Shown piece by piece: positions 516 through 26,313 of a stretch of 64,000 bases of DNA (positions are counted from its first letter, which is position 1; the number at the start of each line of letters is the position of its first letter). Both the position numbers and the translations under genes were made by a program. This DNA comes from Trichomonas vaginalis G3. Taxonomy: Eukaryota; Parabasalia; Trichomonadida; Trichomonadidae. The stretch is from NCBI RefSeq assembly GCF_026262505.1, contig NC_067208.1:7883962-7947961 (forward strand), given 5' to 3'. The notes under the pieces are model-generated. The model did not search any database. It was not told the origin of the DNA and saw only the letters and a list, made by a program, of their open reading frames with translations.

Positions 516-633
516 AGGTCAGGTATGAGGGGCTTCCAGGGGCTGCGCCCCTTCTAGCCCTAAGAATTTTGCCCAAGACCCAAGAGGAGGACCGAACCCC
601 AGCCGACCAGCCGGTGACAAAACCAAAACCGTT
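516..633 (+). repeat. Left terminal inverted repeat of the Maverick
   Basis: It is identical to the reverse complement of the right end for about the first 100 bases, then diverges slightly up to ACCAAAACCGTT. It is much richer in GC than the interior and contains the small palindrome AGGGGCTGCGCCCCT near its tip. Confidence 0.95.
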
Positions 634-3220: not shown

Positions 3221-5027
3221 ATGTCAAATGAAACAGCGTCTATGAGAGAAATACAACACAACCGACAACTCATTATGCAAGCTCTAAATAAGAACACAAC
3301 AAACTTTTCAAACTATTCTAAGATATCTGAGTCATTGAAAGGGGGTGACTTAAAACTGACATTAAACCCTATAACAGATGAGTTTTCTGTTTCAAGACAA
3401 TAAGAACAATACTGTCTGTATAAATCCAACAAAAGGAACTTTAAACGAGAAACCTATAAATGAACTTCTTTTGAAAGCAGATGTTGACAACAAAGCTGAC
3501 AAAGAATATGTAGAGACGATGCAATAGCAAAAGAAGCAGAAAGAGCTAACAATGCTTATGCAACAAAAGAACATACTCATCCTGAACTAGCAGACAAAAC
3601 ATATGTTGACAATAAAATGTCAAGTGAAGTGACAAGAGCTGAAAACGAATATTCTAAAAAGACTCATATACATTAATATTAACCAAATACCAAGTCTTAA
3701 GGAAACATTAGAGACAAAAGCAGATAAGACTCATACACATTCTATATCTGATATTACAAACTTACAAGAAACCTTAAACAGGAAAAGTGACGTTGGACAT
3801 ACACATACCATTGCAAATATTACAAACTTACAAGAAACCTTAAACAGGAAAAGTGCCGTTGGACATACACATACCATTGCAAATATTACAAACTTACAAG
3901 AAACCTTAAACAGGAAAAGTGCCGTTGGACATACACATACATCTTCTGAAATAACAGACTTAAACGTTAGCCTTGAAAATAAAGCAGATAAAACATATGT
4001 CAATGAAATATACCAAAGTTTGCTAGGAACAAAAAATATTGAAACTATTGTTGGTGACTTTTCTTTCAATGAAGAAAACAAATATTTTAGATGGCAGTTT
4101 GTACATTCCTTAAAAAATGGTATACGGTATAAACTCATTCCGAAAAATAACAATGAAATGTATGTAAGCTATAAAAAGAACGATGGTACACAAGTTAAAG
4201 TTCCATTAGACAACAACTGCTACTTAAACTTATACGGAGACGAACAAAAGAAATATTTCCGAGTTTATGAAATGACAGATATGACATTGCCTGACCCAGC
4301 TCCAGCACCATATTATTATGACTATGGAGATGACGACAGAACACCACATGTAGATGAACAAAAACTAACATTATATTTAGATTATTATAGATATAAAAGA
4401 TATAATGCAATAGAAAAAACGAGAATAGTATATTATTATACAGATGACAGAAATAAATATTATAGTCAAGATTTTACCTACCCTGAAAACATAAGATTAT
4501 ATTATAAAAAATATTCTGACACAAACCAGAAGAAACCTGAAATAGTTACACTATATCTTAAGTTCAAAAGAGACAATCCTATAATATCTCATATGTTTGA
4601 TTTAATGAACCCAGTAGGTTCTATTTATACATCTATGGATGCAAGAGGTCCTCAAGTAATGTTTGGTGTTGGTGCATGGGAACAAATAGTCGACAGGTTT
4701 TTGTATTGTGCAAACTCTTCAAAGGAAACAGGTGGAAGTAAAACGATTTCAGGTGAAAATTTACCTGCGCACAGTCACTACATAGATTTAAGTACATCTC
4801 AAGCAGGTTGGCATAAGCATAGATATTGGGATTGGTCAGCAATGACAAAAGGTAAAGGATATGATGTTAAAGACAACGTTAAGTTTGCTATAAATTGTTA
4901 CTGGAGTAACACTGAGGGAGGAGGAAACCATACACATCGCGTTACAGGATATACGCAAACAACGGGACAAAGTAAAGAATACATGCCACCTTACATGACA
5001 GTTTACGCATGGTATAGAAATGCTTAG
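3221..5027 (+). pseudogene. Phage-like fibre with Gp10-type C-terminal domain, frameshifted
   Basis: One coding region of about 600 codons starts at ATG 3221 but is split over three frames, with indels near 3395, 3525 and 3675. The N-terminal part has a helical start. The middle repeats K-A-D-(K)-x-(Y/H)-V/T-H as in phage tail fibres, including about 2.7 copies of a 22-residue unit at 3731-3945. The C-terminal 145 residues (from about 4590) contain NPVGSIYTSM, FGVGAWEQIVDRFLYC, GGSKTI, HSH, HKH, NHTH and YMPPYMTVYAWYR. These are hallmarks of the T4 Gp10/short-tail-fibre C-terminal domain, whose HxH motifs bind metal and form trimers. Likely role is a trimeric attachment fibre. It overlaps the integrase gene tail to tail by 4 bp. 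An intact homolog is at 61429-62481. Confidence 0.8.
3731..3945 (+). repeat. 66-bp coding tandem repeat in the fibre shaft
   Basis: Roughly 2.7 copies of a 66-bp unit encode 22 residues each (ITNLQETLNRKS then GHTHTIAN). Copies 2 and 3 are almost identical at the DNA level, so the shaft has expanded recently by tandem duplication. The HTH triplets match the histidine-rich, trimeric coiled repeats of phage fibres. Confidence 0.8.
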
Positions 5028-5983
5028 TCGTCATTTTCAACTTCTTTAGCATATTCGTCAGGAGTTGTCTTATATTTGTTAGGAACTGTCTTTGAAAGTA
5101 TACCACCTTGAACTTTGACAAGTTTGAAACGAGGTCTGGCAATAGTAGTTTTATCTTCTGCTTGCAGTGTGTACATTTTGCCATGTTTGCCTAAAACTTC
5201 ATAATATTCTCTTGTATGCTTTCTTCTATTTTTACGAACACGAATGTGAGTACCTATCGGGTTCCCATTGTTGTCATAGTCAATAGTATTTTCATATGGG
5301 TCGCGTTTAGGTATTTCTATTTTTACTTTGTCACCTTTCTGAAGTTTGAAGCCCGGCATTCTTTCTTGTTTGTCTCTTTTGACTAAATTATTAAATATAT
5401 AGTCTTTCTCTAAGTCGGGGTTGTTTTTCATTTCTTCGGGGGAGTGGTTTCCCAAACCTTTTTGTTTACGGTTATTGTAAATATTTAAAACTTGTCTCAT
5501 CTTTGCCATGGAGAAGTGTCTATACTTGTCGTCATATGACATTTCATTTGCTTCACCACCTTGTGGTTGGTTTAAGTCTCTTAACATTTTTATACAACCG
5601 TCAATGACACCAAGAGCAGAATGGTTTTGGTCGACAATGAAATATTGGTTTACATTTTTTGAACGCAGATAGTTTTTTACATCATCTGATTTGAAAGAAC
5701 TTTCATAGTCAGATGTCAGTTTTGTTGGATGGTATTTATCAACGAATATTGTCAAAGCAGTTTTCACATCTAAAATATTTTTGGACTGTAATGGTATGGC
5801 TTCACAGTATCTTGTGTTTTGACCAACAAATATTAACCAGTATGGTGGTCCATCTTCTCTATACCTCGGAATGTTTTCCAAGATATCCATAAACCAAGCA
5901 TTTGGTGTTGAACTAAAGATTTTTACCATGAGTGCTTTCTTTGTCGCTTTAGAAACATAGGGGTCCTTGTTTGGATTCGTCAT
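5024..5983 (-). CDS. Maverick DDE integrase (retroviral type)
   Basis: This 319-aa protein has a retroviral-integrase core. Asp33 lies in WFMDILE, followed by WLIFVGQNTRYCEA, Asp92 in LTSDYESSF, and after exactly 35 residues an acidic residue (Asp128) in HSALGVIDGC. Glu is the textbook third residue; Asp is found here. The C-terminal half is basic, with an SH3/chromo-like strand pattern (QKGDKVKIEI, then YYEVLGKHGKMYTL). It catalyses insertion of the element ends. The start is ATG 5983, 17 bp from the divergent gene at 6001 with a shared T-rich promoter. The ORF is intact. Confidence 0.9.
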   Translation of the reverse strand: MTNPNKDPYVSKATKKALMVKIFSSTPNAWFMDILENIPRYREDGPPYWLIFVGQNTRYCEAIPLQSKNILDVKTALTIFVDKYHPTKLTSDYESSFKSDDVKNYLRSKNVNQYFIVDQNHSALGVIDGCIKMLRDLNQPQGGEANEMSYDDKYRHFSMAKMRQVLNIYNNRKQKGLGNHSPEEMKNNPDLEKDYIFNNLVKRDKQERMPGFKLQKGDKVKIEIPKRDPYENTIDYDNNGNPIGTHIRVRKNRRKHTREYYEVLGKHGKMYTLQAEDKTTIARPRFKLVKVQGGILSKTVPNKYKTTPDEYAKEVENDD

Positions 5984-8470: not shown

Positions 8471-8590
8471 AAAATAATGTTTATGTTAGCATGTTAGATC
8501 TAACACGTTTTCTAACCACTTTTCTAACATCGTAGAAAACTCATGAAAACAATTTATTTTTGACACTTTCACAAAAAACATAAAAAAAGT
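8471..8590 (+). repeat. AGATCT spacer module 1, left edge of the KilA-N island
   Basis: The spacer begins AAAAATAATGTTTATG. Its palindromic core at 8496-8501 sits in TGTTAGATCTAACA, and it is followed by two TTTTCTAAC repeats. This is the first of 16 modules in this element, and it marks the sharp boundary between ordinary Maverick genes and the island. Confidence 0.8.
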
Positions 8591-8608
8591 GAAGTTAAAA
8601 TGAGATGT

Positions 8609-8974
8609 TTACTGAACTGGTCGGATGTCGCCTTCTGTAGTTATGTAGAATGGTTGACCAAAGAAGTGGAACAGTGCTCTGAGAATTTGTATAATTCGTG
8701 GAATTGGACTCTCTCTGTTTGGAAGTTGTATCCATGGGCGCTTTGCAAAGAACTTTATAATGGCTTCCTTCTTTGCTTGCTTTATGTCGTCGTAGGCTGT
8801 CCCGTCTGGTACGTCAATTGGAATTCCAGTCGAAATCTCGAGATTCAAGGCAGCCCTTCCAGAAATAGTGGTGAACTTGACCTTGGGCTTCATGACCTTG
8901 CGCAAGTAGTCTTTAACAAGCTCGTTAATTTCAATTAGGTAAATTGCCTCGTCGGTAGGTTCGACCTCGACCAT
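8609..8974 (-). CDS. Hypothetical protein (121 aa) with atypical composition
   Basis: The ORF has ATG at 8974 directly beside a 21-bp repeat array. It is mixed alpha/beta (EINELVKDYLRKVM, then KVKFTTISGRAALNLEIS) and I do not recognise it. Codon choice is richer in GTC, ACC and CTC than in neighbouring genes, as in the divergent gene at 9270. The pair therefore looks like a module acquired from a different source. The opposite-strand frame at 8600-8938 has no comparable support. Confidence 0.5.
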   Translation of the reverse strand: MVEVEPTDEAIYLIEINELVKDYLRKVMKPKVKFTTISGRAALNLEISTGIPIDVPDGTAYDDIKQAKKEAIIKFFAKRPWIQLPNRESPIPRIIQILRALFHFFGQPFYITTEGDIRPVQ

Positions 8975-8975
8975 T

Positions 8976-9097
8976 GCTACTGTCAGTAAAAGTACTGCTA
9001 CTGTCAGTAAAAGTACTGCTACTGTCAGTAAAAGTACTGCTACTGTCAGTAAAAGTACTGCTACTGTCAGTAAAAGTACTGCTACTGTCAGTAAAAA
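8976..9097. repeat. 21-bp tandem repeat array A
   Basis: About 5.8 head-to-tail copies of GCTACTGTCAGTAAAAGTAC plus T, nearly identical. The array starts 2 bp from the ATG of the minus-strand gene and lies in the region separating it from the plus-strand gene at 9270. This fits an iteron-like or bidirectional control region. Confidence 0.9.
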
Positions 9098-9125
9098 GGA
9101 AAATTTGAGAGGGTTTTCGACGATA

Positions 9126-9226
9126 AAGTACTGCTACTGTCAGTAAAAGTACTGCTACTGTCAGTAAAAGTACTGCTACTGTCAGTAAAAGTACTGCTAC
9201 TGTCAGTAAAAGTACTGCTAGTAGCA
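9126..9226. repeat. 21-bp tandem repeat array B
   Basis: About 4.5 copies of the same unit as array A, separated from it by 28 bp of unique sequence. The array ends in a small palindrome, CTGCTAGTAGCAG (9216-9228). Both arrays lie within the divergent intergenic region of 8609-8974 and 9270-9611. Confidence 0.9.
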
Positions 9227-9269
9227 GAGATTTTTATCGTTGGTGGTCCGACGGTTAAGCCACAAACGA

Positions 9270-9611
9270 ATGTCCGACGTCCCACCAACCCAGTCCATTC
9301 CCAAACCAGAGGAACCTAAAGCACCAGCCCCTGCACCTCAGTTCCAGCAAGTACCTCCGAATTACTACCAATTTCCACCTCAAGGTTACTACCCACTACA
9401 AGGCTTCCCGAACTACCCTCCTCAGCCTATGCCTTACTGCCCCAACCCTTGGATGTTCCAGCAAGCTCCACCCCAGCAATTCCAATCTCAATCCAAATCG
9501 AAGAGAGACCAAGAGTTCGAAGAAGGTCTGAACCGCTTACGCAAAGAGTATGCCACAGCTCCAATTGAGAGAAAGTTGTTGCTGAATTCAGCAAAAATAA
9601 TGTTTAGGTGA
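9270..9611 (+). CDS. Pro/Gln/Tyr-rich protein with a chimeric C-terminus
   Basis: From ATG 9270 the first 80 residues are Pro/Gln/Tyr-rich (YYQFPPQGYYPLQGFP). A basic helical part follows (KSKRDQEFEEGLNRLRKEY). The last nine codons are read from the start of an AGATCT spacer: GTTGCTGAATTCAGCAAAA and the following bases are shared with 63195-63220. The natural C-terminus has therefore probably been replaced by recombination at the spacer edge. Composition is GC-richer than neighbouring genes. The function is unknown. Confidence 0.5.
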   Translation: MSDVPPTQSIPKPEEPKAPAPAPQFQQVPPNYYQFPPQGYYPLQGFPNYPPQPMPYCPNPWMFQQAPPQQFQSQSKSKRDQEFEEGLNRLRKEYATAPIERKLLLNSAKIMFR

Positions 9612-9691
9612 AGAGGTGAGATCTAACCTCTTTTCTCACCTCTTTTCTCACCTCTTGAATTTGTCATGACTTCTTCGTAAACTAAACGTAA
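9580..9691 (+). repeat. AGATCT spacer module 2 (hybrid core)
   Basis: The core at 9619-9624 reads GGTGAGATCTAACC: the left arm is G-type (GTGA) and the right arm is A-type (TAAC), so the palindrome is imperfect. TTTTCTCACC follows twice, and then CTTCTTCGTAAAC leads into a KilA-N fragment. Confidence 0.8.
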
Positions 9692-9920
9692 ATGTTTTGT
9701 GAAGAATATAGCAACCGCCGGAATTCAGACGGTTGCTTTTTATACAAAATTCATGCGGGAAATTCTTGAGTTTTGGTTGAAAGAATACGGTGGAGCCAAA
9801 AGTGGCTCGACCTCAAAACAAGCATTTTATGAGCTTACAAAGGGTGTTATGAATGAATTCAGCAACATACATCCTGACCTCGTTCATTTTGTTGCTAAAT
9901 TCAGTAAAAATATATTTTAG
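9692..9920 (+). pseudogene. KilA-N gene fragment, frameshifted
   Basis: ATG 9692 opens a frame matching the inside of the intact KilA-N gene (FCEEYSN then FLYKIHAG; compare 11891-11975). A frameshift near 9758 moves to a second frame with FWLKEYGG, STSKQAFYELTKG and HPDLVHFVAKFSKN, ending at 9920. The second half is not in the 11710 gene but recurs at 63070-63225. The fragment lacks the N-terminal DGYINAT part and is bounded on both sides by spacer modules. Confidence 0.75.
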
Positions 9921-10444
9921 GTGAAGTGGTGAGATCTCACCCGTTTTCTCACCTGTTTTCTCACCTCTTGAATTTTCATGAATTTTATATATTAATGTTT
10001 TCGTTATGCCACTTTGTGCCGTCAGTCAGTCAGTCAGTCAGTCAGTTTAGGAAATTTACACCAAAAATAATGTTTAGGGTAGATGGTTAGATCTAACCTC
10101 ATTTCTAACCTCATTTCTAACCTCTTGAATTTTCATGATTTCATCGTAAATGTTTTGACAAAACATGAACGTACATGCTTTGTCAAGACTTCATCGTAAT
10201 GAGCGTAAATCAGACAAAAATATATTTTAGGTGAAGTGGTTAGATCTAACACGTTTTCTAACACGTTTTCTAACCTCTTGAATTTTCATGATTTCATCGT
10301 ACATGTTTTGTCAAACATGAACGTACATGCTTTGTCAAGACTTCATCGTAATGAGCGTAAATGACCAAAAAATATAATTTAGGGTAGAAGGTTAGATCTA
10401 ACCTGTTTTCTCACCTCTTTTCGCACCTCATGAATTTTCATGAA
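9893..10444 (+). repeat. AGATCT spacers 3-6 with intervening satellites
   Basis: Cores are at 9932-9937 (GTGAGATCTCAC), 10089-10094, 10242-10247 and 10394-10399 (GTTAGATCTAAC). Each is preceded by (A)ATnTTTAGG and followed by two TTTTCT(A/C)ACC repeats and GAATTTTCATGA. Between cores are a GTCA microsatellite (10020-10046) and 24-25 bp units such as CATGAACGTACATGCTTTGT. No gene is seen. Confidence 0.85.
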
Positions 10445-10516
10445 TTTCCTTAAGATAGAAAAAATAAAATTAGTTTTATTTTTATTTATTTTTTTATTTT
10501 GTATGTAAAGACATAT
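10445..10516 (+). promoter_or_regulatory. Island gene leader upstream of the KilA-N/GIY-YIG gene
   Basis: TTCCTTAAGATAG, then an A/T-rich tract and TTTTATTTTGTATGTAAAGA, lead directly into the start codon. The same 60-70 bp leader stands before the genes at 11710, 13679 (variant), 15362 and 63351, so it is probably their common promoter and 5' leader. Confidence 0.7.
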
Positions 10517-11128
10517 ATGTCAAACATTGAGTTTGAAACAGTTAAAAAGATAGACAATGACACCAAATTGGTTAGAATAGGTGATTTAAACGTAAGATAC
10601 TCAAAGAAATACAACAAATATTCTTTGTCAGACATTTTATCTCCATCTGGAAAGAGACCGAAGGACTGGGTTAGAATTGCTTCTACTCAGAAAATTTTGA
10701 CAAGAAATCCTGAGCTTATGATATCAGTAGCATTTCATGGAACAAGAGCATATCTTATAGACAAAAGTCTTATACCAATAGTTTTGTTATGGTTAGACCC
10801 AGTTGTTGGATATAACTTCATAACATATGGTTCATTCGATACGGAACGTTGCAGTGAAGGCTTACTTTACATCGTTCAGAAACCGAAGGACTTCAATACA
10901 AAGAGATATAAGATAGGAAGAACATATAATATAACTCAAAGATATGACTCTACAGTCAATAGAGTCAAGGTTGTGTTCGTTAATGATATGAGAGCTGCAG
11001 AAACAGAACTACTTGAAGTTTTTGAGAAAATGTATGGTGCTCCCATAAAAGGTAAAGAAACGTTTGAAGTAGATGAGATAGATAAAGCTATAAAATTATT
11101 TGACGAAGTTGCTGAAAAATACATGTAA
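10517..11128 (+). CDS. KilA-N-like domain fused to a T5orf172/GIY-YIG-like domain
   Basis: ATG 10517 (MSNIEFE) was chosen because the upstream codons belong to the conserved leader. Residues about 20-70 have a KilA-N-like pattern (YNKYSLSDIL, KRPKDWVRIAST). From residue 115 GLLYIV, YKIGRTYNITQRY, a central AETELLEVF and ETFEV match the T5orf172/MUG113 relatives of GIY-YIG nucleases. These pairings are typical of large DNA viruses and phages, where such proteins bind or nick DNA. The classical GIY-YIG tyrosines are only partly present, so nuclease activity is uncertain. It is the first intact gene of the island. Confidence 0.72.
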   Translation: MSNIEFETVKKIDNDTKLVRIGDLNVRYSKKYNKYSLSDILSPSGKRPKDWVRIASTQKILTRNPELMISVAFHGTRAYLIDKSLIPIVLLWLDPVVGYNFITYGSFDTERCSEGLLYIVQKPKDFNTKRYKIGRTYNITQRYDSTVNRVKVVFVNDMRAAETELLEVFEKMYGAPIKGKETFEVDEIDKAIKLFDEVAEKYM

Positions 11129-11640
11129 AGCGTTTATTTTTGGTCTTTTGTGAAAGTCAGAAAATAACGCTAATTTTATTTTATTTATTCTTCATTTTTT
11201 TGTATGTAAGATATGATTTCAGGGATTTTTTTGACGAAGTGTTACTCTTCACTTCGTCAAAAAATAACAGTTATATAATGAAAAAGTGTCATTTTTTTGT
11301 ATTTTTTTGTATTTGACGAGAATGTTTAGGGTAGAAGGTTAGATCTAACCTGTTTTCTCACCTCTTTTCTCACCTCATGAATTTTCATGATTTCATCGTA
11401 CATGTTTTGTCAAGACTTCTTCGTAAATGTTTTGTCAAACATGAACGTACATGCTTTGTCAAACATGAACGTACATGCTTTGTCAAACATGAACGTACAT
11501 GCTTTGTCAAGACTTCTTCATCGTAATGAGCGTAAATCAGACAAAAATATATTTTATGTTAACATGTTAGATCTAACACGTTTTCTCACCTGTTTTCTAA
11601 CATGGTCTAAAACACACAAAACTCATGAATTTTCATGAAT
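11129..11640 (+). repeat. Intergenic island block: leader, hairpin, spacers 7-8, satellites
   Basis: The block contains a leader copy ending at 11212, a hairpin micro-ORF, AGATCT cores at 11341-11346 and 11569-11574, and satellite units alternating CATGAACGTACATGC and CTTCTTCGTAAATG types (11385-11535). The core at 11569 has outer arms ATGTTAAC and CTAACATGG, so the longer hairpin pairs its first and last repeats. Confidence 0.8.
11213..11278 (+). other. Hairpin micro-ORF, copy 1 (21 codons)
   Basis: ATG 11213 follows the island leader (TTTTTTGTATGTAAGAT) exactly where the genes at 13679 and 63351 start with ATGATTTCA. Inside it is a perfect inverted repeat, TTTTTTGACGAAGTG and CACTTCGTCAAAAAA (about 11226-11264). 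It ends at TAA 11276-11278 and is followed by AAAAAGTGTCATTTTTT. Three near-identical copies exist. It could be a terminator or attenuator structure, or a tiny peptide gene; coding is unproven. Confidence 0.45.
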
Positions 11641-11709
11641 TTCCTTAAGATAGAAAAAATAAAGTTAGTTTTATTTTATTTATTCTTCATTTTGTATGTA
11701 AGAACAGAA
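11641..11709 (+). promoter_or_regulatory. Island gene leader upstream of the KilA-N gene
   Basis: TTCCTTAAGATAG, then AAAAATAAAGTTAG, a T/A tract and TTTTGTATGTAAGA are shared with the leaders at 10445, 13281, 15291 and 63288. The conserved block ends immediately before ATG 11710. Confidence 0.7.
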
Positions 11710-12372
11710 ATGTCAGTCGAAGCACAGACGTTCACGAACAAATCTAATGGCGAAACATTCACAAATGGCACCTATAACGGTATTGAAGTCTTACGTAGAG
11801 ACAAGGATGGTTATATAAATGCAACAAATATGTGTCAGCAGTTTAGGAAAGACTTTAGAAAGTTGTTGGAAAATAAGTCCTGGGAAGAGTATTATAAGGC
11901 ATTTTGTGAAGAATATAGCAACCGCCGGAATTCCGGCGGTTGGTTTTTATACAAAATTCATGCGGGAATTCCTGATGAAATCAAACAGGTTAGAGGAACG
12001 TATGTAGACCCAAGACTTATAAACTATATAGCAATGTGGGCTTCACCAAAATATTGCATAGCAGTTGGAAAAATTATGGACTCCATAGACAAGAAAGTTC
12101 ATGAGAAGTTAGATGAAGAAGAACTCGAAGATACAGTAGAGAATGCTAAACCTTTGTTCGAACAAGAAGTTGGAAAAATGTGCGGAAAACAATTAGAACA
12201 TGAACGTGAGAAATGTTATGGTTATAGAGATTCTCCATACGAACTAGACCAATGGGAACAAGAAGATTTAAAGAGAGAATTTAGAGAATATGAACTCGCT
12301 AAGATAGCATTAGAAGCTGCAGAAAAGAAGTTAAAAGTTTGGGGTCGTTTTGTACAAAAATATTGTGAGTAA
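11710..12372 (+). CDS. KilA-N domain protein (220 aa)
   Basis: ATG 11710 (MSVEAQTF) follows the conserved leader; an upstream in-frame extension is the leader itself. The KilA-N domain spans about residues 20-130. Key motifs are RRDKDGYINATNMC (30-42), QFRKDFRKLLENKSW, and TYVDPRLINYIAMWASPKY (97-115) with KIMDSI. KilA-N is a DNA-binding domain of phages and eukaryotic DNA viruses. The C-terminal 90 residues are acidic, then helical (EREKCYGYRDSPYELDQW and a coiled end). The gene is intact. Its middle part (KAFCEEYSNRRNSGG) recurs as fragments at 9692 and 62960. Confidence 0.88.
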   Translation: MSVEAQTFTNKSNGETFTNGTYNGIEVLRRDKDGYINATNMCQQFRKDFRKLLENKSWEEYYKAFCEEYSNRRNSGGWFLYKIHAGIPDEIKQVRGTYVDPRLINYIAMWASPKYCIAVGKIMDSIDKKVHEKLDEEELEDTVENAKPLFEQEVGKMCGKQLEHEREKCYGYRDSPYELDQWEQEDLKREFREYELAKIALEAAEKKLKVWGRFVQKYCE

Positions 12373-13280
12373 ATGAACCATTTATTTTTATTGAATTCAC
12401 CAAAAATAATGTTTAGGGTAGAAGGTTAGATCTAACCTGTTTTCTAACCTCATTTCTAACCTCTTGAATTTTCATGATTTCATCGTACATGTTTTGTCAA
12501 ACATGAACGTAAATGTTTTGTCAAAACTTCTTCATCGTACATGTTTTGTCGAAACTTCATCGTAAATGCTTTGTCAAGACTTCTTCGTACATGCTTTGTC
12601 AAACATGAACGTACATGCTTTGTCAAACATGAACGTAAATGTTTTGTCGAAACTTCATCGTAAATGTTTTGTCGAAACTTCATCGTAATGAGCGTAAATG
12701 ACCCAAAAATAATGTTTAGGTGAAGAGGTTAGATCTAACCTCTTTTCTCACCTCTTTTCTCACCTCATGAATTTTCATGATTTCTTCGTACATGTTTTGT
12801 CAAGACTTCTTCGTACATGTTTTGTCAAAACTTCTTTGTAAATGTTTTGTCAAGACTTCTTCGTAAATGATTTGTCATGATTTCTTCGTACATGTTTTGT
12901 CAAACATGAACGTACATGCTTTGTCAAGACTTCTTCGTACATGCTTTGTCAAGACTTCTTCGTAAATGTTTTGTCAAGACTTCTTCGTAAATGTTTTCGT
13001 TATGCCACTTTGTGCCGTCAGTCAGTCAGTCAGTTTAGGAAATTTACACCAAAAAATATATTTTAGGTGAAGTGGTTAGATCTAACACGTTTTCTAACAC
13101 GTTTTCTAACCTCTTGAATTTTCATGATTTCATCGTAAATGTTTTGTCAAACATGAACGTACATGCTTTGTCAAGACTTCTTCGTAATGAGCGTAAATCA
13201 GACAAAAATATATTTTAGGTGAAGTGGTGAGATCTCACCTGTTTTCTCACCTCTTTTCTCACCTCATGAATTTTCATGAA
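12373..13280 (+). repeat. AGATCT spacers 9-12 and long satellite tracts
   Basis: A 0.9-kb block without a gene. Cores are at 12428-12433, 12731-12736, 13078-13083 and 13230-13235 (the last GTGAGATCTCAC). Between them are about 20 satellite units of 24-26 bp built from CTTC(A/T)TCGTA(A/C)ATG(T/C)TTTGTCAA and CATGAACGTACATGCTTTGT (12480-12690, 12780-13010, 13125-13190), plus a GTCA microsatellite at 13016-13034. Confidence 0.85.
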
Positions 13281-13329
13281 TTTCCTTAAGATAGAAAAAA
13301 TAAAGTTAGTTTTATTTTGTATGTAAGAT

Positions 13330-13395
13330 ATGATTTCAGGGATTTTTTTGACGAAGTGTTACTCTTCACTTCGTCAAAAAATAACAGTTATATAA
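13330..13395 (+). other. Hairpin micro-ORF, copy 2
   Basis: Essentially identical to copy 1: ATGATTTCAGGGA start, perfect 15-bp stem, stop TAA 13393-13395, and the same downstream AAAAAGTGTCATTTTTTTGT. Confidence 0.45.
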
Positions 13396-13436
13396 TGAAA
13401 AAGTGTCATTTTTTTGTATTTTTTTGTATGTAAGAT

Positions 13437-13502
13437 ATGATTTCAGGGATTTTTTTGACGAAGTGTTACTCTTCACTTCGTCAAAAAATAACAGTTATAT
13501 AA
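13437..13502 (+). other. Hairpin micro-ORF, copy 3
   Basis: Third copy, a tandem duplicate 107 bp downstream of copy 2, with the same stem and stop at 13500-13502. Its downstream T run is one base shorter. Confidence 0.45.
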
Positions 13503-13613
13503 TGAAAAAGTGTCATTTTTTGTATTTTTTTGTATTTGACGAGAATGTCGGGTAGAAGGTTAGATCTAACCTGTTTTCTACCCTCATTTCTACCCTCTTG
13601 AATTTTCATGAAT

Positions 13614-13678
13614 TTTCCCGAAATAAAAAATAAAGTTAGTTTTATTTTATTTATTTTTTTTATTTTGTATGTAAAGAT
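13614..13678 (+). promoter_or_regulatory. Island gene leader, variant
   Basis: TTTCCCGAAATAAAAAATAA replaces the usual TTCCTTAAGATAG start, but the remainder (AAAGTTAGTTTTATTTTATT and TTTTGTATGTAAAGAT) is the standard island leader. It abuts ATG 13679. Confidence 0.65.
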
Positions 13679-14617
13679 ATGATTTCAACAATCGGCACAA
13701 CAACAATTCAAACAACAGCACCAAACTCGTTAGTCATGAATCCAACATCTATGTTAGTAGAAATGAAAAGCTTCATTCCTTCTTCATATACTTTCGAAAC
13801 AAAAATCCAGAAGATAAAGCAAGAACTTTTAACAAGTAATTTAGACTGTAGTGCGAAAGATGAAACAAATGAAGAATATCTTTATGAAATGCAGGACATT
13901 ATTGACCATTTGCCTAAACTACCTGAAATCCAACAACAAAAACTCACTATTCCTGAATTCGACGAAATTGAAGTGAAACCAACTGACTCAGTAGAAATAA
14001 AGAAGTTCATACGTAAGGTAAATTATGAATTCCTTGGTTTTCATTGCAACCATAAGGTTATGGACAAAGATTGCGACATGGTATATAAGAATGTTTCTGA
14101 CATATATAAATCTGAAGAATTTAAGACCTACGACAACTTTGTTTCGTTAGTTGCTGAATGTGTTTGGGAAATAAGAGATAAAGATAGAAGAGGCAAAGTA
14201 TGGAACAAACAGATAAAACCAGCAGCTTTTGAGTTAAAGAAAACCATTGACGCCTTAGTTGTTTTAGCAGGTAAGGTTTCAGAATATAACGCAAAAATGA
14301 ACCCGCAATGTTCTAAATGTAAAGCAGCAATTAGGAAATATAACTACTCCGTCAAAGAGATAGAACGTATGCGAAACGACTATGCAGACTTAAAGAAAGA
14401 AGCAGAAAAGCCAGCAGAAGATAAAATGGACATGTTAGAATTTCTGAACAAAAACTATCCAACTGCTGACGATTTCCTATTATCTGACGTCAAGAAGAAG
14501 TATAAAGAAACTTTCGGCATAGTTAAAACATTCGATGTACTAAAAGAAGAAATAGAAGCTACAAAACTGTTTAGGATTTCAAATATACATCGTACAATTC
14601 ATGTAAAACGCTTGTGA
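13679..14617 (+). CDS. Hypothetical island protein with possible winged-helix C-terminus (312 aa)
   Basis: The gene is intact. A second copy (about 85% identical by eye) begins at 63351 and runs off the window end. The N-terminus is Thr/Ser-rich. The middle is helical with several cysteine pairs, notably CSKCKAAIRKY near residue 218. The last 60 residues (FLNKNYPTADDFLLSDVKKK, then TKLFRISNIHRTIHVKRL) look like a compact alpha/beta unit resembling winged-helix ends of viral DNA-binding proteins; this is inference. Leader and spacers are the same as for the KilA-N genes, so it is part of the same gene set. No family name can be given. Confidence 0.6.
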   Translation: MISTIGTTTIQTTAPNSLVMNPTSMLVEMKSFIPSSYTFETKIQKIKQELLTSNLDCSAKDETNEEYLYEMQDIIDHLPKLPEIQQQKLTIPEFDEIEVKPTDSVEIKKFIRKVNYEFLGFHCNHKVMDKDCDMVYKNVSDIYKSEEFKTYDNFVSLVAECVWEIRDKDRRGKVWNKQIKPAAFELKKTIDALVVLAGKVSEYNAKMNPQCSKCKAAIRKYNYSVKEIERMRNDYADLKKEAEKPAEDKMDMLEFLNKNYPTADDFLLSDVKKKYKETFGIVKTFDVLKEEIEATKLFRISNIHRTIHVKRL

Positions 14618-15150
14618 AAAAACAGGTGAGAAAACGGGTGAAAAAAACGGGTGAGATCTCACCTCTTCACCTAAACATTATTTTTGTCTGATTTACGCTC
14701 ATTACGAAGAAGTCTTGACAAAACATTTACGAAGAAGTCTTGACAAAACATGTACGATGAAATCATGAAAATTCATGAGGTGAGAAAACAGGTTAGAAAA
14801 CAGGTTAGATCTAACCTTCTACCCTAAACATTATTTTTGTCTGATTTACGCTCATTACGAAGAAGTCTTGACAAAACATTTACGAAGAAGTTTTGACAAA
14901 ACATATACGTTCATGTTTGACAAAACATGTACGAAGAAGTCTTGACAAAACATATACGTTCATGTTTGACAAAACATGTACGAAGAAGTCTTGACAAAAC
15001 ATGTACGTTCATGTTTGACAAAACATGTACGAAGAAATCATGAAAATTCATGAGGTGAGAAAACAGGTGAGAAAACAGGTTAGATCTCACCTCTTCACCT
15101 AAACATTATTTTTACTGAATTCAGCACAAAAATCTGAGTAAAATGGCATA
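14618..15150 (-). repeat. AGATCT spacers 14-16 and satellites in reverse orientation
   Basis: Here all modules are inverted relative to the preceding ones: CCTAAACATTATTTTTGTC lies to the right of each core. Cores are 14654-14659 (GTGAGATCTCAC), 14808-14813 (GTTAGATCTAAC) and 15082-15087 (hybrid GTTAGATCTCAC). Satellites read ACGAAGAAGTCTTGACAAAA. The block follows the stop codon of 13679-14617 directly. Confidence 0.85.
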
Positions 15151-15290
15151 AGATTGCTTCCCTCGGAAAACCGAGAGAAGAACAGCGAGACCGTTTTTTT
15201 TCTGGGTCGCCAAAACTCTATGAAAACCGAGAGAAGAACAGCGAGTAAGTAAAAAAACCCAGTCGCCAAAACTCTATGAAATTCATGAAT
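15151..15290 (+). repeat. Duplicated fragments of the downstream KilA-N gene
   Basis: The segment contains two near-copies of pieces found inside the next gene: GAAGAACAGCGAGTAAGTAA and AGTCGCCAAAACTCTATGAA occur here and at 15610-15660. The pieces are rearranged, non-coding and lie just upstream of the gene's leader, so they record local copying of KilA-N sequence into the spacer. Confidence 0.75.
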
Positions 15291-15361
15291 TTCCTTAAGA
15301 TAGAAAAAATAAAGTTAGTTTTATTTTTATTTATTTTTTTATTTTGTATGTAAAGACAGAT
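15291..15361 (+). promoter_or_regulatory. Island gene leader upstream of the third island gene
   Basis: Standard leader: TTCCTTAAGATAG at the start and TTTTTTATTTTGTATGTAAA at the end. It is almost identical to 10445-10516 and ends at ATG 15362. Confidence 0.7.
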
Positions 15362-16201
15362 ATGTCAACAACAGAGAACACAACAACTGCTATCGTTCAT
15401 GAAGCCATAAATGAAGAATACGAGTACATACAGTTTAACAAACAACTCCGTCTCATTCGTTCGGTCAAAGACGATATGTACCAAATGCAAAGTATTTTGA
15501 CAGCATGTTTTGCTCCAGATACTAAGAAACCACAAGACTGGTTTAGGAACCAAAGCACACAAGAACTTTTGAGCGAAGCACAGCGAGACATACTTTTTTC
15601 TGAAAACAGTGAAGAACAGCGAGTAAGTAAAAAACTGCAGTCGCCAAAACTCTATGAAAATCGTGAAAAATTGCCAAACGGTTTGAGAGGATATTATGTA
15701 CATAGACTTCTTGTAAATGCTGTTGCAATGTGGGCTTCGCCTCGTTATGCTTGGTATATTTACAGACTTCTTGACGAAATTCATAGACAAGAACGTGAAG
15801 AGATGGAAAACAAGCTTGAAGCAAAAGACAAAAGCATTCAGAAAAGAATACCACGTTCGGTACCAAAAGGAAAGGAAAAGAACTATAAGTATATGATTTA
15901 TACTGAAGAGATGGAAAATGAAGAAGATAAAGATATGGTTATGTTGCATTTAGTCAGAAGAAACAACAAAAGCTTTTACGACCTTGCTAAGATTTACAAA
16001 TCTGACAGAAATTGGTTCTATCGTGAAAACTTACCGATTTCAATGACACCGAATGAAGATGTGAAACAAATAGTTCAAGATACGTTACCTCAAACACACT
16101 ATGATATGAAAGGTTGTACAATACTTACATTCAAAGAAGACTTACCGCTACTGAAAGAAAAAATAACAGAGTATTTTGACAACTTCAAACAAGCAGAGTA
16201 A
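15362..16201 (+). CDS. KilA-N domain protein with extended C-terminal domain (279 aa)
   Basis: ATG 15362 (MSTTENTTTA) follows the leader. The KilA-N part is divergent: QDWFRNQSTQELL at 58-70 and GYYVHRLLVNAVAMWASPRYA at 110-130 are the conserved helix and strand blocks. A helical linker follows. The C-terminal 100 residues (KYMIYTEEMENEEDKDMVML, then NWFYRENLPISMTPNEDV) resemble the C-terminal domains often attached to KilA-N in large DNA viruses (DUF3627-like; low confidence). The probable role is a DNA-binding regulator. It is intact and convergent with the ATPase gene, 15 bp apart. Confidence 0.8.
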   Translation: MSTTENTTTAIVHEAINEEYEYIQFNKQLRLIRSVKDDMYQMQSILTACFAPDTKKPQDWFRNQSTQELLSEAQRDILFSENSEEQRVSKKLQSPKLYENREKLPNGLRGYYVHRLLVNAVAMWASPRYAWYIYRLLDEIHRQEREEMENKLEAKDKSIQKRIPRSVPKGKEKNYKYMIYTEEMENEEDKDMVMLHLVRRNNKSFYDLAKIYKSDRNWFYRENLPISMTPNEDVKQIVQDTLPQTHYDMKGCTILTFKEDLPLLKEKITEYFDNFKQAE

Positions 16202-16216
16202 ATGAACTCTTTATTT

Positions 16217-17089
16217 TTATTGACTTTTTACAATTTGAACTTTGTTTGCGTAGATATGAATTCTGAAAGAAGTATGAGGGTCTTGTATGACTTTGTACTT
16301 CTCCCATAGTTCATGTCTGTCAAACTTACCTGCCATGGACTCTTTCATAAGTTCCATGAAATCGTCTTCGGACAATCCGGGGAAAAGTATTATGTCAGTA
16401 AGTATTCTTTTAACATCCTTACTTAAACTCTTTGCTGTCTGTACACATATTACGACTGAAATGTTAAAGTGTCTGAGCTTCTTAAGAATTCGACACATGT
16501 CTTGTTCTCTGTTCTTTAACAAAGGATGAGAAGCAAAGTCATCTAAGATAAGAAGACATCTATGAGGGTATGTCTTCCAATCGTAAGATTGCAATTTCTT
16601 CGAAATGTATTCTATCTCTTTCTGTTTGTTTCTGAAGTGGTGTTTGTCTAATATTCTCTGCATTTCCTCATTAGGTTCTTTAAACTTAGAATTTATATAC
16701 TCATTTATAGCATTATACTTCAAAACTCTTCTTTGGTACTTCTTTATCCAATCTAACAACTCAGTATCCTTTATACATACTAACTTAGACTTCTTTATAA
16801 TATCTTTGAACGAATTGACGGTTTGGTCAAATTGACCAGAAGTACTACAAATTACTACTAACTCATAGAATGGGTTCTTCTCATCTAGTTCTTGTTGTTG
16901 TGCAGCCATTTTAAGATAAGTGAAAGTCTTACCCGACCCAGGTGGTGCAATTAGACCTGTTATACCATTCTGAGCAAATAAGAACTTGTCATGTATAGGC
17001 TTTATCTGAGCATTTTCTAACTTTCTCTTGTTCTTATTTAAAACATTCTCAAATTTCTTGTCAATGTCAGCAAACTTTTTTTCTAACAT
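16217..17089 (-). CDS. FtsK/HerA-type genome packaging ATPase
   Basis: Starting at ATG 17089 (MLEKKFADID) the protein has 290 residues. This start avoids overlap with the divergent gene at 17126 and sits behind a T-rich leader. Walker A is APPGSGKT at 48-55, Walker B LLILDD at 179-184, and a sensor-type strand VVICVQTAKS at 212-221. This is the A32/FtsK-HerA ATPase of Polintons and related viruses, which pumps DNA into the capsid. A homolog with the same layout is at 57615-58440. The gene is intact. Confidence 0.88.
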   Translation of the reverse strand: MLEKKFADIDKKFENVLNKNKRKLENAQIKPIHDKFLFAQNGITGLIAPPGSGKTFTYLKMAAQQQELDEKNPFYELVVICSTSGQFDQTVNSFKDIIKKSKLVCIKDTELLDWIKKYQRRVLKYNAINEYINSKFKEPNEEMQRILDKHHFRNKQKEIEYISKKLQSYDWKTYPHRCLLILDDFASHPLLKNREQDMCRILKKLRHFNISVVICVQTAKSLSKDVKRILTDIILFPGLSEDDFMELMKESMAGKFDRHELWEKYKVIQDPHTSFRIHIYANKVQIVKSQ

Positions 17090-17125
17090 ATTTTTAGAAA
17101 AATTAAAATTTTTATCTTTTAGAAA

Positions 17126-17578
17126 ATGTCTAGCGATTTCGCTATCTATATTCGAGACAAGCTTTTCGACAGCAAAACATCTGTCGACCATAAAATCTTA
17201 CATAGTGTAAACAAGAAAGGTGAATTTGTTCTAAAGTTCTGTTTCTGGGAATATGACAAGAACCATAAAACATTACAAAGAGCAGTCTTAAAATTTGTCA
17301 ATGACAGACTTGTTGACAGAGATGACGCTGATTGGAAAGATGAAGTCCAACAAAAGTTCTTAGAATGCAAAGAAGATACATGCGCCGTTCTTGAAGATGA
17401 AATAGAAAACAGAATAGATGAGCTATTAAAGGACAAAGAACTTTTACATAAATATGGTTGCGCCAAATTTGACATAACTCCACCAGAAAAGAAGAAGAAA
17501 GAAAAGAAAGAAAAGAAAGTAGAAGAAGAGAAGAAAGAACCTGAACCAGTTCCAGAGAAAAAGAAATTTGACATGTAA
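17126..17578 (+). CDS. Hypothetical protein with Lys/Glu-rich tail (150 aa)
   Basis: The ORF is divergent from the ATPase gene, with 36 bp between ATGs (AATTTTTATCTTTTAGAAA before this one). Residues 1-105 look globular (DFAIYIRDKLFD, then EFVLKFCFWEYDK). Residues 115-150 are a highly charged Lys/Glu/Pro tail. No family is recognised. Its position between ATPase and helicase genes suggests a role in DNA handling, but this is only context. Confidence 0.55.
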   Translation: MSSDFAIYIRDKLFDSKTSVDHKILHSVNKKGEFVLKFCFWEYDKNHKTLQRAVLKFVNDRLVDRDDADWKDEVQQKFLECKEDTCAVLEDEIENRIDELLKDKELLHKYGCAKFDITPPEKKKKEKKEKKVEEEKKEPEPVPEKKKFDM

Positions 17579-18055: not shown

Positions 18056-19286
18056 TCAGAAAAATTTTCTTTGTAATACACCATTCTGAACATCTAAAAG
18101 ACTTTTGACATTTGCCAAGAATGTTCGTTTAGACGCTGTCATATAACCATATTCTTGACAATATTGTTTATACGAATCGTACAATGACCTTTCATCTAAT
18201 GACACAAAGTCAGTTTCATCTATGAACAGTTCATATACACTCTTGTTTGCTTCTAACAATGTTTGTCTCTCTTCGGTATGTGGAATTTGTCTTGGATTGA
18301 ACTTAGAAATATCTAATGTCATAAAATATGAGAACAAGTGGTTGTAAAAGTCAGATGTCAAAGTTTCTGCTAAGTCGTCAAAATATTCTGTATCTTGCAT
18401 ATGAGAATCTGACGTTCTGACAACTACATATCTTCTGTCAGAACTTTCTAACTTCATCGGAACAGCATTGTTTGAAACCATAATGAAGTTTGCAACATTT
18501 TCACAAACTCTTTGGTCTTTATATTTTCTTTCAACAACTCCAACTTTATCTGTTATAAGACTCTTCAAAGCATCTGAGTTCAAAACTTTTGTTGTATCTA
18601 TACTTTGAAGTTCATTGCAAACTATAAGTTTCATATTCTCAATTGAAGAGTTAAACTTGCCACAGATGTTTTCTAAGTTTGTCATATTCGGATTCGAATA
18701 ACCTTCTAACAGTTTTGCACAAAATATCTGTAAAGAAAGTATTCTTACCAGTTCCTTGTTTTCCAATTATAATGAGAGCAGTTTCATTTTTAGCACTTGG
18801 ATGTTGTAAGATGTTTGCAAACCAACATAAGATATACTCATAAACCTTTTCGTTTCCATTGCATATAATTTCTTTGACATGGTCTAACCAAGCTTCTATA
18901 ATATTTTCTTTCCATTCTACTTGTTCATATTTATATCCAGTGAAGATAGAATAGAAGTTTGGAGAAGGTGTATAGAACTTTATACCTCGAACTGAAAAAT
19001 CTTCTAACTTTGACAATAAGATATCCCAAGCATCTAACATCTTCATGCCAACTTGTACGACTTTTATTTTCTTAAGTTTCTGTCTACATTCTTGTTCAGA
19101 CACTATTGTTGCTCTTGGTTTGTTAAAGACAACATCCCATTCTTTCATGACATAACATTCTGGGGCAGAGTCAACATAAATGACCAAACGTTTCAAATTC
19201 TCGACTGCTTTGTTATAGTCTCTAAATGGACACATATTTCTGAATGCTTGGAAGTCATAAAAATCTGAAACATCTATTCTGTACAT
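18056..19286 (-). pseudogene. D5-like SF3 primase-helicase, frameshifted
   Basis: The first part (19286 down to about 18715) contains FANILQHPSAKNETALIII and Walker A GKQGTGKN at residues 175-182. The second part carries Walker B-like LIVCNELQS, motif C-like FIMVSNNAVP, DRRYVVV and a C-terminal wing-like region (DSYKQYCQEYGYMTASKRTF). This order is that of poxvirus D5/phage P4-type superfamily 3 helicases. They unwind origins and often carry a primase domain upstream, which is not evident here. One extra A in the A run at about 18716 splits the gene. It probably takes the replication role normally filled by polymerase B in Mavericks (inference). Confidence 0.82.
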
Positions 19287-24352: not shown

Positions 24353-26062
24353 TTAAATCATATCCTTAGCGAGCTTGTATTTTCCAGGTTTAAGATTATA
24401 TCCCATTTGGTGCTGAACCATAAAGCTAAATAGGTTCGGGTCAGTATTTCCTTCCTTGAACTTTCTAATAGCTTCTTTATATCTGTCACTAAAGTCAAGA
24501 GTATCTGGGTAACCATAATCTTCCTTAAGCATTTTTAAGAATTCTTGGTTTCCTTGTTCTCTACTTCTTTTATGTCCTTGCTCTGTTTGTGGTTGTTGTT
24601 GTGCAGGGTTTTGAACTGTTGGTTGTTGTGCTGGTTGTGGTTGTTGTTGTGCAGTGTTTTGAACTGTTGGTTGTTGTTGTGCTGGTTTTGGTTGCTGTGC
24701 AGGGTTTTGAACTGTTGGTTGCTGTGCAGGGTTTTGAACTGTTGGTTTTGGTTGTTGTTGTTGTGCTGGATTTTGAACTGTTGGTTGTTGTGTTGGTTTT
24801 GGTGCATGCCTGTGTCTGTGTCCATGTGACGATGTAAATGTTTTAGGTAGTCCTGGTGCAGGTGCTTCTCTTGGAGGGTTTGGTGGTATATAAGTTCCAC
24901 CAGCTGGCACATATGTTCCATCTGCAGCATAATGTCCTACCTGACTTTTCGTTTTTAAGAAAGCATTTACTAGGTCTGTTTTGGTCTGTTGTAACTCTTT
25001 TTCTTGACTTTCCACAACAGTTGCTCTAACGGCGTCATAGGCACTTTGAACTGCCTGTCTCGTTGCTGCATCTGTTATTTTCGTCATATTTTGTGCTACT
25101 TCTTTTAACTCTTTGTCGAAACCTTCAGACTTCAGTTTCTTTCCAGATGAGAAGTCGTTCACTAGTTTCACCTTACTATGAAGAGCTTCGAAGGCGTTCT
25201 TAAAGTCAGCATTCATTAAAGCTTCATTTGAACTGTCTTCATCCGCTTGTATTTTTGTCCTTATTGACCCTATAAGTTGGGCTGCTTTAGCGTTGGCTTG
25301 GGCATCTAACCAGTCATTATTAGCTTTTATATATTCTGCGCTTTTCATTGCCTTTTGCATGGCTGCGTCGTTATTTTTACTTTCTTGTGCTAAGTTTTCA
25401 TACTGTACGGTTTGGTTTTGCAACTGTAAAAGTTTTTCTGCCTTTACATTTGCTTCAACTTCTTTTTTATACTCATCGCTATCCATATATGTCTTCAGGG
25501 CTTTTTGTTTTATTTCTTCATCTTTCAGTACTTTATATTGAGTAGTATGGTTTTTCAAATTTATAACATCTTGTTCCATTTTTGCTACTTCTGCTGCTTT
25601 TTCTGACACTTTTTTCGCATATTCCTCTGTACTTAGTTCTTTCAGTTGTTCTTCTTTCTTCTTTTTCTCTACGTTTAACTCATTGAGTTTCTTTGTGTGT
25701 CTGTCATATTCTAGTTTCTTTTCGTTTTCACTTATTTGTTTCTGTATGTCTATGTTTGACTTTTTGACATCTGTTATTTGATTTTTGAGTGAACTCAAAT
25801 TCATTTGACTTTGAGGGTTATAAGCTGTTCCGTCTGCAGCTCCACCATAGCCTGCCATTTTCGCTAAAAGTGCCGCTCTTAAACCTCCACTCTGTGCACC
25901 AATAACTCGGTTTAAAAGCATAGGGTTGCTTGACATTTGTTGCAACATAGTGGGGTCATTCATAATTTGTTGTTGCAACTGTTGTTGTGGTGTCAGTTTT
26001 ACTATTGGATGTTTCAATGCTCTCTTCCTCTTACGTATATTCTTACGTAGCTTACGTGGCAT
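24353..26062 (-). CDS. Long coiled-coil protein with Pro/Gln repeats (569 aa)
   Basis: The N-terminus is very basic (MPRKLRKNIRKRKRALKHP), which suggests DNA binding or nuclear entry. Residues about 90-340 are a charged coiled coil (Lys/Glu/Gln heptads). Then comes HGHRHRH, and six to seven copies of PTVQNPAQQ-type repeats at about 430-495. The C-terminus is compact (FLKMLKEDYGYPDTLDFSD). It is the first gene at the right end, intact despite its length. Possible roles are a core or DNA-condensing protein. I do not recognise a family. Confidence 0.7.
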   Translation of the reverse strand: MPRKLRKNIRKRKRALKHPIVKLTPQQQLQQQIMNDPTMLQQMSSNPMLLNRVIGAQSGGLRAALLAKMAGYGGAADGTAYNPQSQMNLSSLKNQITDVKKSNIDIQKQISENEKKLEYDRHTKKLNELNVEKKKKEEQLKELSTEEYAKKVSEKAAEVAKMEQDVINLKNHTTQYKVLKDEEIKQKALKTYMDSDEYKKEVEANVKAEKLLQLQNQTVQYENLAQESKNNDAAMQKAMKSAEYIKANNDWLDAQANAKAAQLIGSIRTKIQADEDSSNEALMNADFKNAFEALHSKVKLVNDFSSGKKLKSEGFDKELKEVAQNMTKITDAATRQAVQSAYDAVRATVVESQEKELQQTKTDLVNAFLKTKSQVGHYAADGTYVPAGGTYIPPNPPREAPAPGLPKTFTSSHGHRHRHAPKPTQQPTVQNPAQQQQPKPTVQNPAQQPTVQNPAQQPKPAQQQPTVQNTAQQQPQPAQQPTVQNPAQQQPQTEQGHKRSREQGNQEFLKMLKEDYGYPDTLDFSDRYKEAIRKFKEGNTDPNLFSFMVQHQMGYNLKPGKYKLAKDMI

Positions 26063-26194: not shown

Positions 26195-26313
26195 AACGGT
26201 TTTGGTTTTTATCACCGGCTGGTCGGCTGGGGTTCGGTCCTCCTCTTGGGTCTTGGGCAAAATTCTTAGGGCTAGAAGGGGCGCAGCCCCTGGAAGCCCC
26301 TCATACCTGACCT
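26195..26313 (-). repeat. Right terminal inverted repeat of the Maverick
   Basis: Inverted partner of 516-633. The outer ~100 bp match base for base. The copy is followed by AATAA (26314-26318), the right half of the target-site duplication. Confidence 0.95.

Follow-up and report, generated by a model that had tools for sequence, protein, structure and literature searches.

Why four intact genes of an integrated virus should share one leader and lie among many copies of a short palindromic module is the question raised by positions 8471–16216 of the DNA analyzed here, a 64,000-nucleotide stretch of the Trichomonas vaginalis G3 genome (RefSeq assembly GCF_026262505.1, contig NC_067208.1, positions 7,883,962 to 7,947,961, forward strand), hereafter the window. 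This block, the island, sits within a Maverick bounded by terminal inverted repeats. KilA-N genes in Mavericks are known; new beyond an earlier note on this DNA, made from the letters alone, are a rule of module orientation, a matching of module arms with almost no G-U step, and an exchange of the DNA-binding cores of two KilA-N genes. Together with the anatomy of the island and the gain, loss, and movement of its genes, these are direct observations, and they lead us to suggest, tentatively and at somewhat less than even confidence, that the island may serve an endogenous Maverick virus as a regulatory or immunity-like locus, evolving by cassette and core exchange.

The window holds 18 copies of the module core (KGKKAGATCTMMCM), where 0.02 would be expected, and none of 100 shuffles reached 18. 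Sixteen of these cores, the count given in the earlier note, lie at 8492–15091, and the remaining two, at 62825 and 63233, are part of another array that starts near the right edge of the window. Each module is an AGATCT dyad with flanking half-sites TCT-A/C-A/C-C-A/C, which form direct repeats at 12-bp spacing on one side and are inverted, one or two in number, on the other. Among 213 modules fitting this pattern (which admits only A or C at the variable places, a wider alphabet having been tried at one position), four half-site types were distinguished at two inner positions, TCTAACC, TCTCACC, TCTAACA, and TCTACCC; the types differ between arrays, and no protein was found to vary with them.

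Orientation was assigned by a two-strand score to all 213 modules. In the 18 arrays containing the DUF3839 gene, every one of the 197 modules points toward that gene, 104 on its left in + orientation and 93 on its right in − orientation, with a score margin of at least 2 in 196 modules, 1 in a single module, and no ties. These arrays comprise 14 of 21 copies anchored on the neighboring ATPase gene (window included; see below) and four further loci (L031, L037, L039, and L040; compared loci carry L numbers throughout).

Genome-wide, across the 180.9 Mb on 86 contigs scanned for module counts and copies, GGTKAGATCTMACC yielded 8,114 exact cores and its reversed control none. Both arms were of the G type in 4,103 cores and of the T type in 3,504 (by subtraction), whereas mixed arms accounted for 507 (270 + 237), or 6.2%, compared with 49.7% expected if the arms were independent. 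The two common arm states, G-C and T-A, differ by a transversion; the G-U variant was found in 10 copies and the A-T variant in none. Arm matching is thus kept without passing through the wobble pair that RNA helices usually use, a pattern that argues against an RNA hairpin. It would follow from selection on the dyad as well as from one arm being copied onto the other.

The four island open reading frames (ORFs) described as intact in the earlier note are all open (Table 1). Its reading of KilA-N domains in three of them holds for the genes at 11710 and 15362 (hereafter KilA_1 and KilA_2), which score 90.1 and 96.8 bits against Pfam KilA-N (cut-off 23.8), whereas the gene at 10517 encodes a T5orf172 protein with a KilA-N match of 14.4 bits, below the cut-off, and the gene at 13679 encodes DUF3839. 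An in-frame ATG also precedes the KilA_1 start, at 11635. The predicted fold of KilA_1 is Mbp1-like, with Mbp1 and PCG2 (KilA-N/APSES) as best matches; a single match to dynactin in a comparison of its profile with solved structures (E 0.0079) fell in the C-terminal part and was dismissed as coiled coil. For DUF3839, a Pfam search at E up to 5 returned nothing further; some DUF3839 proteins carry the database name "organellar and viral DNA polymerase type B," which looks wrong given the Pfam assignment. Over the last 80 aligned columns, the leaders of the four genes are 74% to 96% identical to one another and 23% to 46% identical to the upstream regions of three neighboring genes, bearing out the claim of near-identical leaders. 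The satellites (units of 24–25 bp), hairpin micro-ORFs (a 107-bp unit in 2.1 copies), and gene fragments reported between the genes are likewise present. The hairpin micro-ORF units carry the gene leader and are found, as tandem repeats, in a number of Maverick copies, and the left part of the island also holds a 21-bp minisatellite in 5.8 and 4.6 copies (8975–9220).

Copies of the Maverick differ in what lies between the modules. With the ATPase gene adjoining the island as query, 40 scored matches were obtained among 1,783 candidates, and 20 of the 39 others were compared, giving 21 copies with the window. Modules number from 0 (L027 and L028) or 1 (L017, L018, and L026, the count for L017 leaving out one chance AGATCT) up to 32 (L023). 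DUF3839 is near full length by DNA match in 14 copies, at the same place and in the same orientation in all 14; 13 copies have an open, full-length KilA_2, 9 have T5orf172 (broken in one of them), and 3 have a full-length KilA_1. T5orf172 keeps its orientation, but its side relative to DUF3839 changes: left in the window, L010, and L023, and right in L012, L015, L016, L019, L021, and L022. Rather than repeating one identical array, the copies vary, and the exchangeable coding units with a common leader that the earlier note envisaged are indeed gained, lost, and moved. The module, the common spacer of that note, is less well supported as a boundary of cassettes in general: a module lies somewhere on either side of T5orf172 in 6 of 9 copies, but none separates T5orf172 from KilA_2 in L012, L015, and L019, where the two join at the leader. 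The leader stands in front of T5orf172 in all 9 copies, and behind it a leader is matched by blastn in 4 (L010, L012, L015, and L019), a leader-like stretch is visible by eye in 3 (window, L021, and L022), and 2 (L016 and L023) have none. The gene content and gene order of the island thus change between copies, with part of the joints lying at the leader instead of a module. T5orf172 is related to the GIY-YIG nucleases, so the T5orf172 cassette might home into leaders.

Within the two KilA-N genes, exchange reaches into the coding sequence. The KilA_2 proteins of 13 copies are nearly identical at both ends, whereas amino acids (aa) 47–103 occur in unrelated forms. To avoid bias, further copies were picked by the DNA of the conserved end alone, 20 for KilA_2 (L041–L060) and 20 for KilA_1 (match C4:5889604 being passed over), each from 39 other full matches; 17 of the former were usable (L044 and L045, without an open frame to the start, and L060, with an altered start, were dropped) and 16 of the latter (L061, L065, L071, and L080 were dropped). 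The 30 KilA_2 sequences open through the core fall into classes A (13), A' (4), B (6), and C (7), and an in-frame 18-aa unit in the KilA-N domain, absent from B and C, is present in one to three copies in other sequences; pieces of this repeat also lie outside the gene. The 17 KilA_1 sequences fall into classes I (8) and II (9), whose cores are identical at 19 of 86 aligned positions (22%). Between these classes, DNA identity is 0.86–1.0 at nt 6–125 (about 97% before the core), 0.19–0.53 at nt 126–365, and at least 0.99 from nt 366 on; at bases 39 to 25 before the start it is 0.59, but there identity is low within the classes too (0.75 and 0.81). All four flank–core combinations are seen for KilA_2, at aa 22–23, at aa 10, and at a C-side insertion (13 sequences), and for KilA_1 at aa 6, and four recurrent downstream surroundings each hold both KilA_1 classes (by eye). 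The control genes show short dips only, with lowest windowed identities of 0.67 for T5orf172 (9 rows, namely eight island copies and L037, without the 87-aa L012) and 0.59 for DUF3839 (12 copies, without L019 and L023; the truncated 253-aa L021 lowers the last values). These patterns indicate block exchange of the DNA-binding core between genes with near-identical ends.

Pieces of the exchanged cores also lie between modules. The relic between modules 2 and 3, in which truncated class I and class II cores of KilA_1 are joined, has neither a start nor a common open frame. The same joined relic recurs in L009, L010, L012, L013, L014, and L040 and at 62926–63205 of the window, and its class II part alone is found in L015 and L016. 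The second window copy lies between the two modules of the array starting at the right edge (62825–63246). The relic might be dead, a mere remnant, or it might act as a store of donor sequence.

The relatives of KilA_1 listed here, 120 top-scoring hits out of 166, belong to Tritrichomonas musculus, Histomonas meleagridis, and rows without a species name; 29 of the 33 rows in the flank and core trees were drawn from them. In the flank tree, all 9 T. vaginalis rows group in a single clade (100/98.8) in which classes I and II are interleaved, and a tree constrained to hold class I together is rejected (log likelihood difference 123.6; approximately unbiased test, p-AU 2.8e-69). The core tree splits the two classes (100/100), and constraining the T. 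vaginalis rows together is rejected (difference 61.9; p-AU 5.2e-4). Given this conflict, the core classes appear to be older than the T. vaginalis flanks that carry them, unless one class was acquired from another lineage. The relatives from named species belong to class I, and class II beyond T. vaginalis is represented by four rows without a species name, P0350 and P0354 (0.62–0.63 to class II) and the weaker P0359 and P0360 (0.34–0.36), P0359 sitting on a very long branch. IMG/VR, in a search that may exclude records from the genome of the window itself, gave no confirmed relatives of KilA_1 or DUF3839 and no instance of the exact module pattern.

The module is not specific to the island. 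Contig C1 was sampled by its first 100 module places, 35 of which have no second listed place within 4 kb. Of these 35 isolated modules, 10 were read: 3 belong to arrays with KilA-N or DUF3839 genes, and the other 7 occupy a different setting with no relatives of the island genes within 2 kb. The dispersed repeat without KilA-N genes that the earlier note named as evidence against its reading thus describes a part of the modules. The surroundings of the 7 show no DNA match to the query parts of this Maverick and no protein match to the four island genes, and their flanks are near-identical on both sides, forming one shared setting: the end of a gene (DUF4107 in L029) precedes the single module, and the same 106-aa gene comes after it in four of the seven. 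We considered host elements and set them aside, as the shared flanks look like one other Maverick family. Its Maverick nature is indicated by the DUF4107 gene in L029, an integrase match in L033, and a near-copy of the L029 protein in L034; the rest of the seven are apparently Maverick as well. Modules thus occur in two Maverick settings or more, and in KilA-N islands they are multiplied. Close behind the single-module end in L029 lies a gene with a DUF4456 match (L029:2954–3709), possibly host sequence at the edge of the insertion.

A viral locus for regulation or immunity would fit the combination of regulators with a common leader, an exchanged DNA-reading core, and numerous dyad sites in fixed orientation. 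Under such a scheme, the KilA-N genes would encode putative DNA-binding regulators, with the common leader probably serving as promoter, and the modules, pointing at DUF3839, would be candidate sites, most likely for a sequence-specific DNA-binding protein. The block swapped between genes with near-identical ends comprises the helices and wing of the DNA-reading core; proteins altered in this way would read different sites, and elements would then differ in DNA specificity like the immunity types of temperate phages. An element would thereby control its own genes or exclude its relatives. By position, DUF3839 is as good a candidate for the module-binding protein. A stronger claim, which we consider unlikely, is that the island is a eukaryotic counterpart of prophage immunity, in which thousands of Mavericks integrated in one cell would exclude or silence each other via core-swapping KilA-N proteins acting on oriented palindromes, with parabasalid-wide classes kept by diversifying selection and the truncated cores between modules possibly serving as donors.

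Several observations weigh against a regulatory or immunity-like locus. The modules within one array are not independent, and L023 alone supplies 32 of the 197; the single modules of the other Maverick family have no relatives of the island genes within 2 kb; and the flank–core combinations could partly reflect repeated mutation at flank sites. DUF3839 is without known function, and a model built from 18 sequences of 90% to 97% identity was useless (predicted local distance difference test score, pLDDT, 42.5). Across 13 arrays, a small sample judged by inspection, half-site type does not visibly track KilA_2 core class, and an intact AGATCT module lies within 150 bp downstream in just 4 of 16 KilA_1 copies (a mutated one in a fifth), so that KilA-N protein and module may be unrelated. 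Finally, among 3,183 Maverick KilA-N ORFs, published RNA-seq detected expression of a single one (PMC7845603, accessible passages).

Passive repeat dynamics would account for much of the pattern. On this account, which we regard as a serious though doubtful one, the modules are a dispersed, self-spreading or satellite-like Maverick repeat; duplication in tandem, gene conversion, and template switching make the arrays and match the arms; and core exchange is non-adaptive gene conversion. Modules do stand in tandem at 112- or 128-bp spacing (L023; C1:2025596-2026364), the arrays are littered with broken gene pieces, and tandem growth from a single module per side would by itself keep the orientation rule. 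Palindromes are subject to template-switch correction, a mechanism that matches arms, and the matched arms, transversion states, and near absence of G-U fit it as well as they fit selection. Several findings speak against such dynamics: all 7 single modules of the other Maverick family have one and the same pair of flanks, cores are exchanged in KilA_1 and KilA_2 but not in T5orf172 and DUF3839 of the same arrays, all 13 KilA_2 genes of full length by DNA match are open, and T. vaginalis shares class I cores with named parabasalids and class II cores with relatives without a species name.

We think it quite unlikely that the modules, which often follow a stop codon, act as RNA, as hairpins ending or processing transcripts, even though mimiviruses follow a hairpin rule for transcript ends. 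In the window, module cores start 4 to 52 bp past the stops of DUF7777, the 9270 ORF, KilA_1, and DUF3839, and a module also comes after the DUF4107 stop in the other Maverick family. The common arm states are G-C and T-A, with the G-U intermediate seen 10 times against 507 mismatched arms; modules also lie between satellites, away from genes, and none follows 11 of 16 KilA_1 genes (12 if the mutated core is discounted); and an Rfam search of the window gave no match. The inverted arrangement of modules about DUF3839, with a distance of about 1,095 bp between the flanking modules of several copies and modules on either side of T5orf172 in most copies holding it, is what a nested mobile element or integron-like cassette system with modules as terminal repeats or recombination sites might look like. 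Such a system is very improbable, as DUF3839 neither moves nor turns around among the ATPase-anchored copies holding it near full length (14 of 21), T5orf172 and KilA_2 join at the leader without a module in 3 of 9 copies, and Pfam gives DUF3839 no recombinase match.

For a regulatory or immunity-like locus, the nearest models are the BstA/aba system and the stoperators of Cluster A mycobacteriophages. BstA/aba prophage defense, as described in the accessible text of PMC8585504, combines a KilA-N-like protein of an integrated virus, a trait shared by this Maverick, with a short cognate repeat-bearing element in the same locus that acts as DNA. Unlike the island, it is bacterial, has one 63-bp element with a terminal direct repeat and not an array of palindromes, and was tested for activity, whereas the island is known from sequence; nor does site type in the island visibly track core class in the small sample of 13 arrays. 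Stoperators, in the parts of PMC6550527 consulted, are many dispersed sites oriented predominantly one way relative to the genome center, as the modules of all 18 arrays are relative to DUF3839; stoperator type varies between relatives together with the immunity repressor, whereas island site types vary with no protein co-variation found, and stoperators are asymmetric sites of a different repressor with proven repression, whereas island sites are dyads with half-site repeats. Baculovirus homologous regions (PMC2830988, parts consulted) resemble the island in being interspersed imperfect palindromes, usually with direct repeats and of variable copy number, in viruses with many bro genes, but their sequence is unrelated, origin and enhancer activity is reported for them, and an orientation rule around one gene is not described in those parts. 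KilA-N/APSES proteins such as Mbp1 and PCG2 resemble KilA_1 and KilA_2 by Pfam, and KilA_1 also by predicted fold; block exchange of the core sets KilA_1 and KilA_2 apart. Type I restriction specificity subunits exchange target-recognition domains and so share with the KilA-N genes constant ends around a swapped recognition block, although they are different proteins and the KilA-N genes encode no enzyme. If a regulatory or immunity-like locus is the right reading, it adds a eukaryotic virus family to the phage pattern of variable recognition domain and dispersed sites; the coexistence of thousands of 20–30 kb virus copies in one genome gains defined parts to examine, and two core classes with near-identical ends offer a natural domain-swap experiment.

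Table 1. Coordinates of modules, genes, and other elements of the island and its Maverick in the window.
Feature	Positions	Strand	Remarks
Left terminal inverted repeat	516–628	+	113 nt, 97% complementary to 26201–26313; context
Module 1 core	8492–8505	+	TCTAACA type; 22 bp past DUF7777 gene stop
Module 2 core	9615–9628	+	Mixed arms
KilA_1 core relic	9695–9900	+	Between modules 2 and 3; truncated class I (query nt 80–153) and class II (query nt 65–218) pieces joined
Module 3 core	9928–9941	+	TCTCACC type
Module 4 core	10085–10098	+	TCTAACC type
Module 5 core	10238–10251	+	Mixed arms
Module 6 core	10390–10403	+	Upstream of T5orf172 leader
Shared leader, T5orf172	10441–10516	+	
T5orf172 gene	10517–11128	+	203 aa; sub-threshold N-terminal KilA-N match; position differs between copies
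Hairpin micro-ORF unit	11217–11322	+	106 bp
Module 7 core	11337–11350	+	
Module 8 core	11565–11578	+	Upstream of KilA_1 leader
Shared leader, KilA_1	11636–11709	+	
KilA_1 gene	11710–12372	+	KilA-N protein, 220 aa; core class I
Exchangeable DNA-binding core of KilA_1	11827–12066	+	aa 40–119
Module 9 core	12424–12437	+	After KilA_1
Module 10 core	12727–12740	+	
Module 11 core	13074–13087	+	
Module 12 core	13226–13239	+	
Two tandem hairpin micro-ORF units	13315–13535	+	107-bp unit, 2.1 copies
Module 13 core	13558–13571	+	Upstream of DUF3839 leader
Shared leader, DUF3839	13605–13678	+	
DUF3839 gene	13679–14617	+	312 aa; array modules converge on it
Module 14 core	14650–14663	−	Past DUF3839 stop; inverted
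Module 15 core	14803–14816	−	Inverted
Module 16 core	15078–15091	−	Inverted; mixed arms
Fragment of KilA_2 repeat	15221–15289	+	Stand-alone; nt 240–306
Shared leader, KilA_2	15286–15361	+	
KilA_2 gene	15362–16201	+	KilA-N protein, 279 aa; core class A
Hypervariable core of KilA_2	15500–15670	+	aa 47–103; in-frame 18-aa repeat unit
Right terminal inverted repeat	26201–26313	−	Pairs with 516–628; context

Accessible passages of earlier work already report KilA-N genes as Maverick cargo, with 3,183 Maverick ORFs (PMC7845603), and more than 1000 KilA-N domains in the T. vaginalis genome (PMC7845603, PMC4862756, and PMC10120064). The accessible literature on T. vaginalis Mavericks and KilA-N, which leaves out most subscription papers, makes no mention that we met of a module array or of KilA-N core exchange. 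By Pfam, the element enclosing the island carries an A32-like packaging ATPase (16217–17191; Pox_A32, 29.3 bits, cut-off 22.8), a major capsid protein gene (24353–26062; DUF4106, named as the T. vaginalis Maverick capsid protein in the accessible part of PMC10120064), and a candidate retroviral-type integrase (rve, 5024–5983, 30.0 bits, just below the cut-off of 32.6, E 6.6e-7); no Pfam match to a protein-primed DNA polymerase B came from those ORFs inside the terminal repeats that were scanned, a part of all ORFs and frames. A D5-like primase-helicase (DUF5906) at 18056–19286 is split over two overlapping ORFs in different frames, and this copy looks broken. Also inside the Maverick, the gene at 4158–5027 carries a Gp10_C domain (phage baseplate protein C-terminus, 81.7 bits). 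Outside it, at 34895–36256, lies a large inverted repeat with arms of 540 nt at 97% identity and 282 nt between them.

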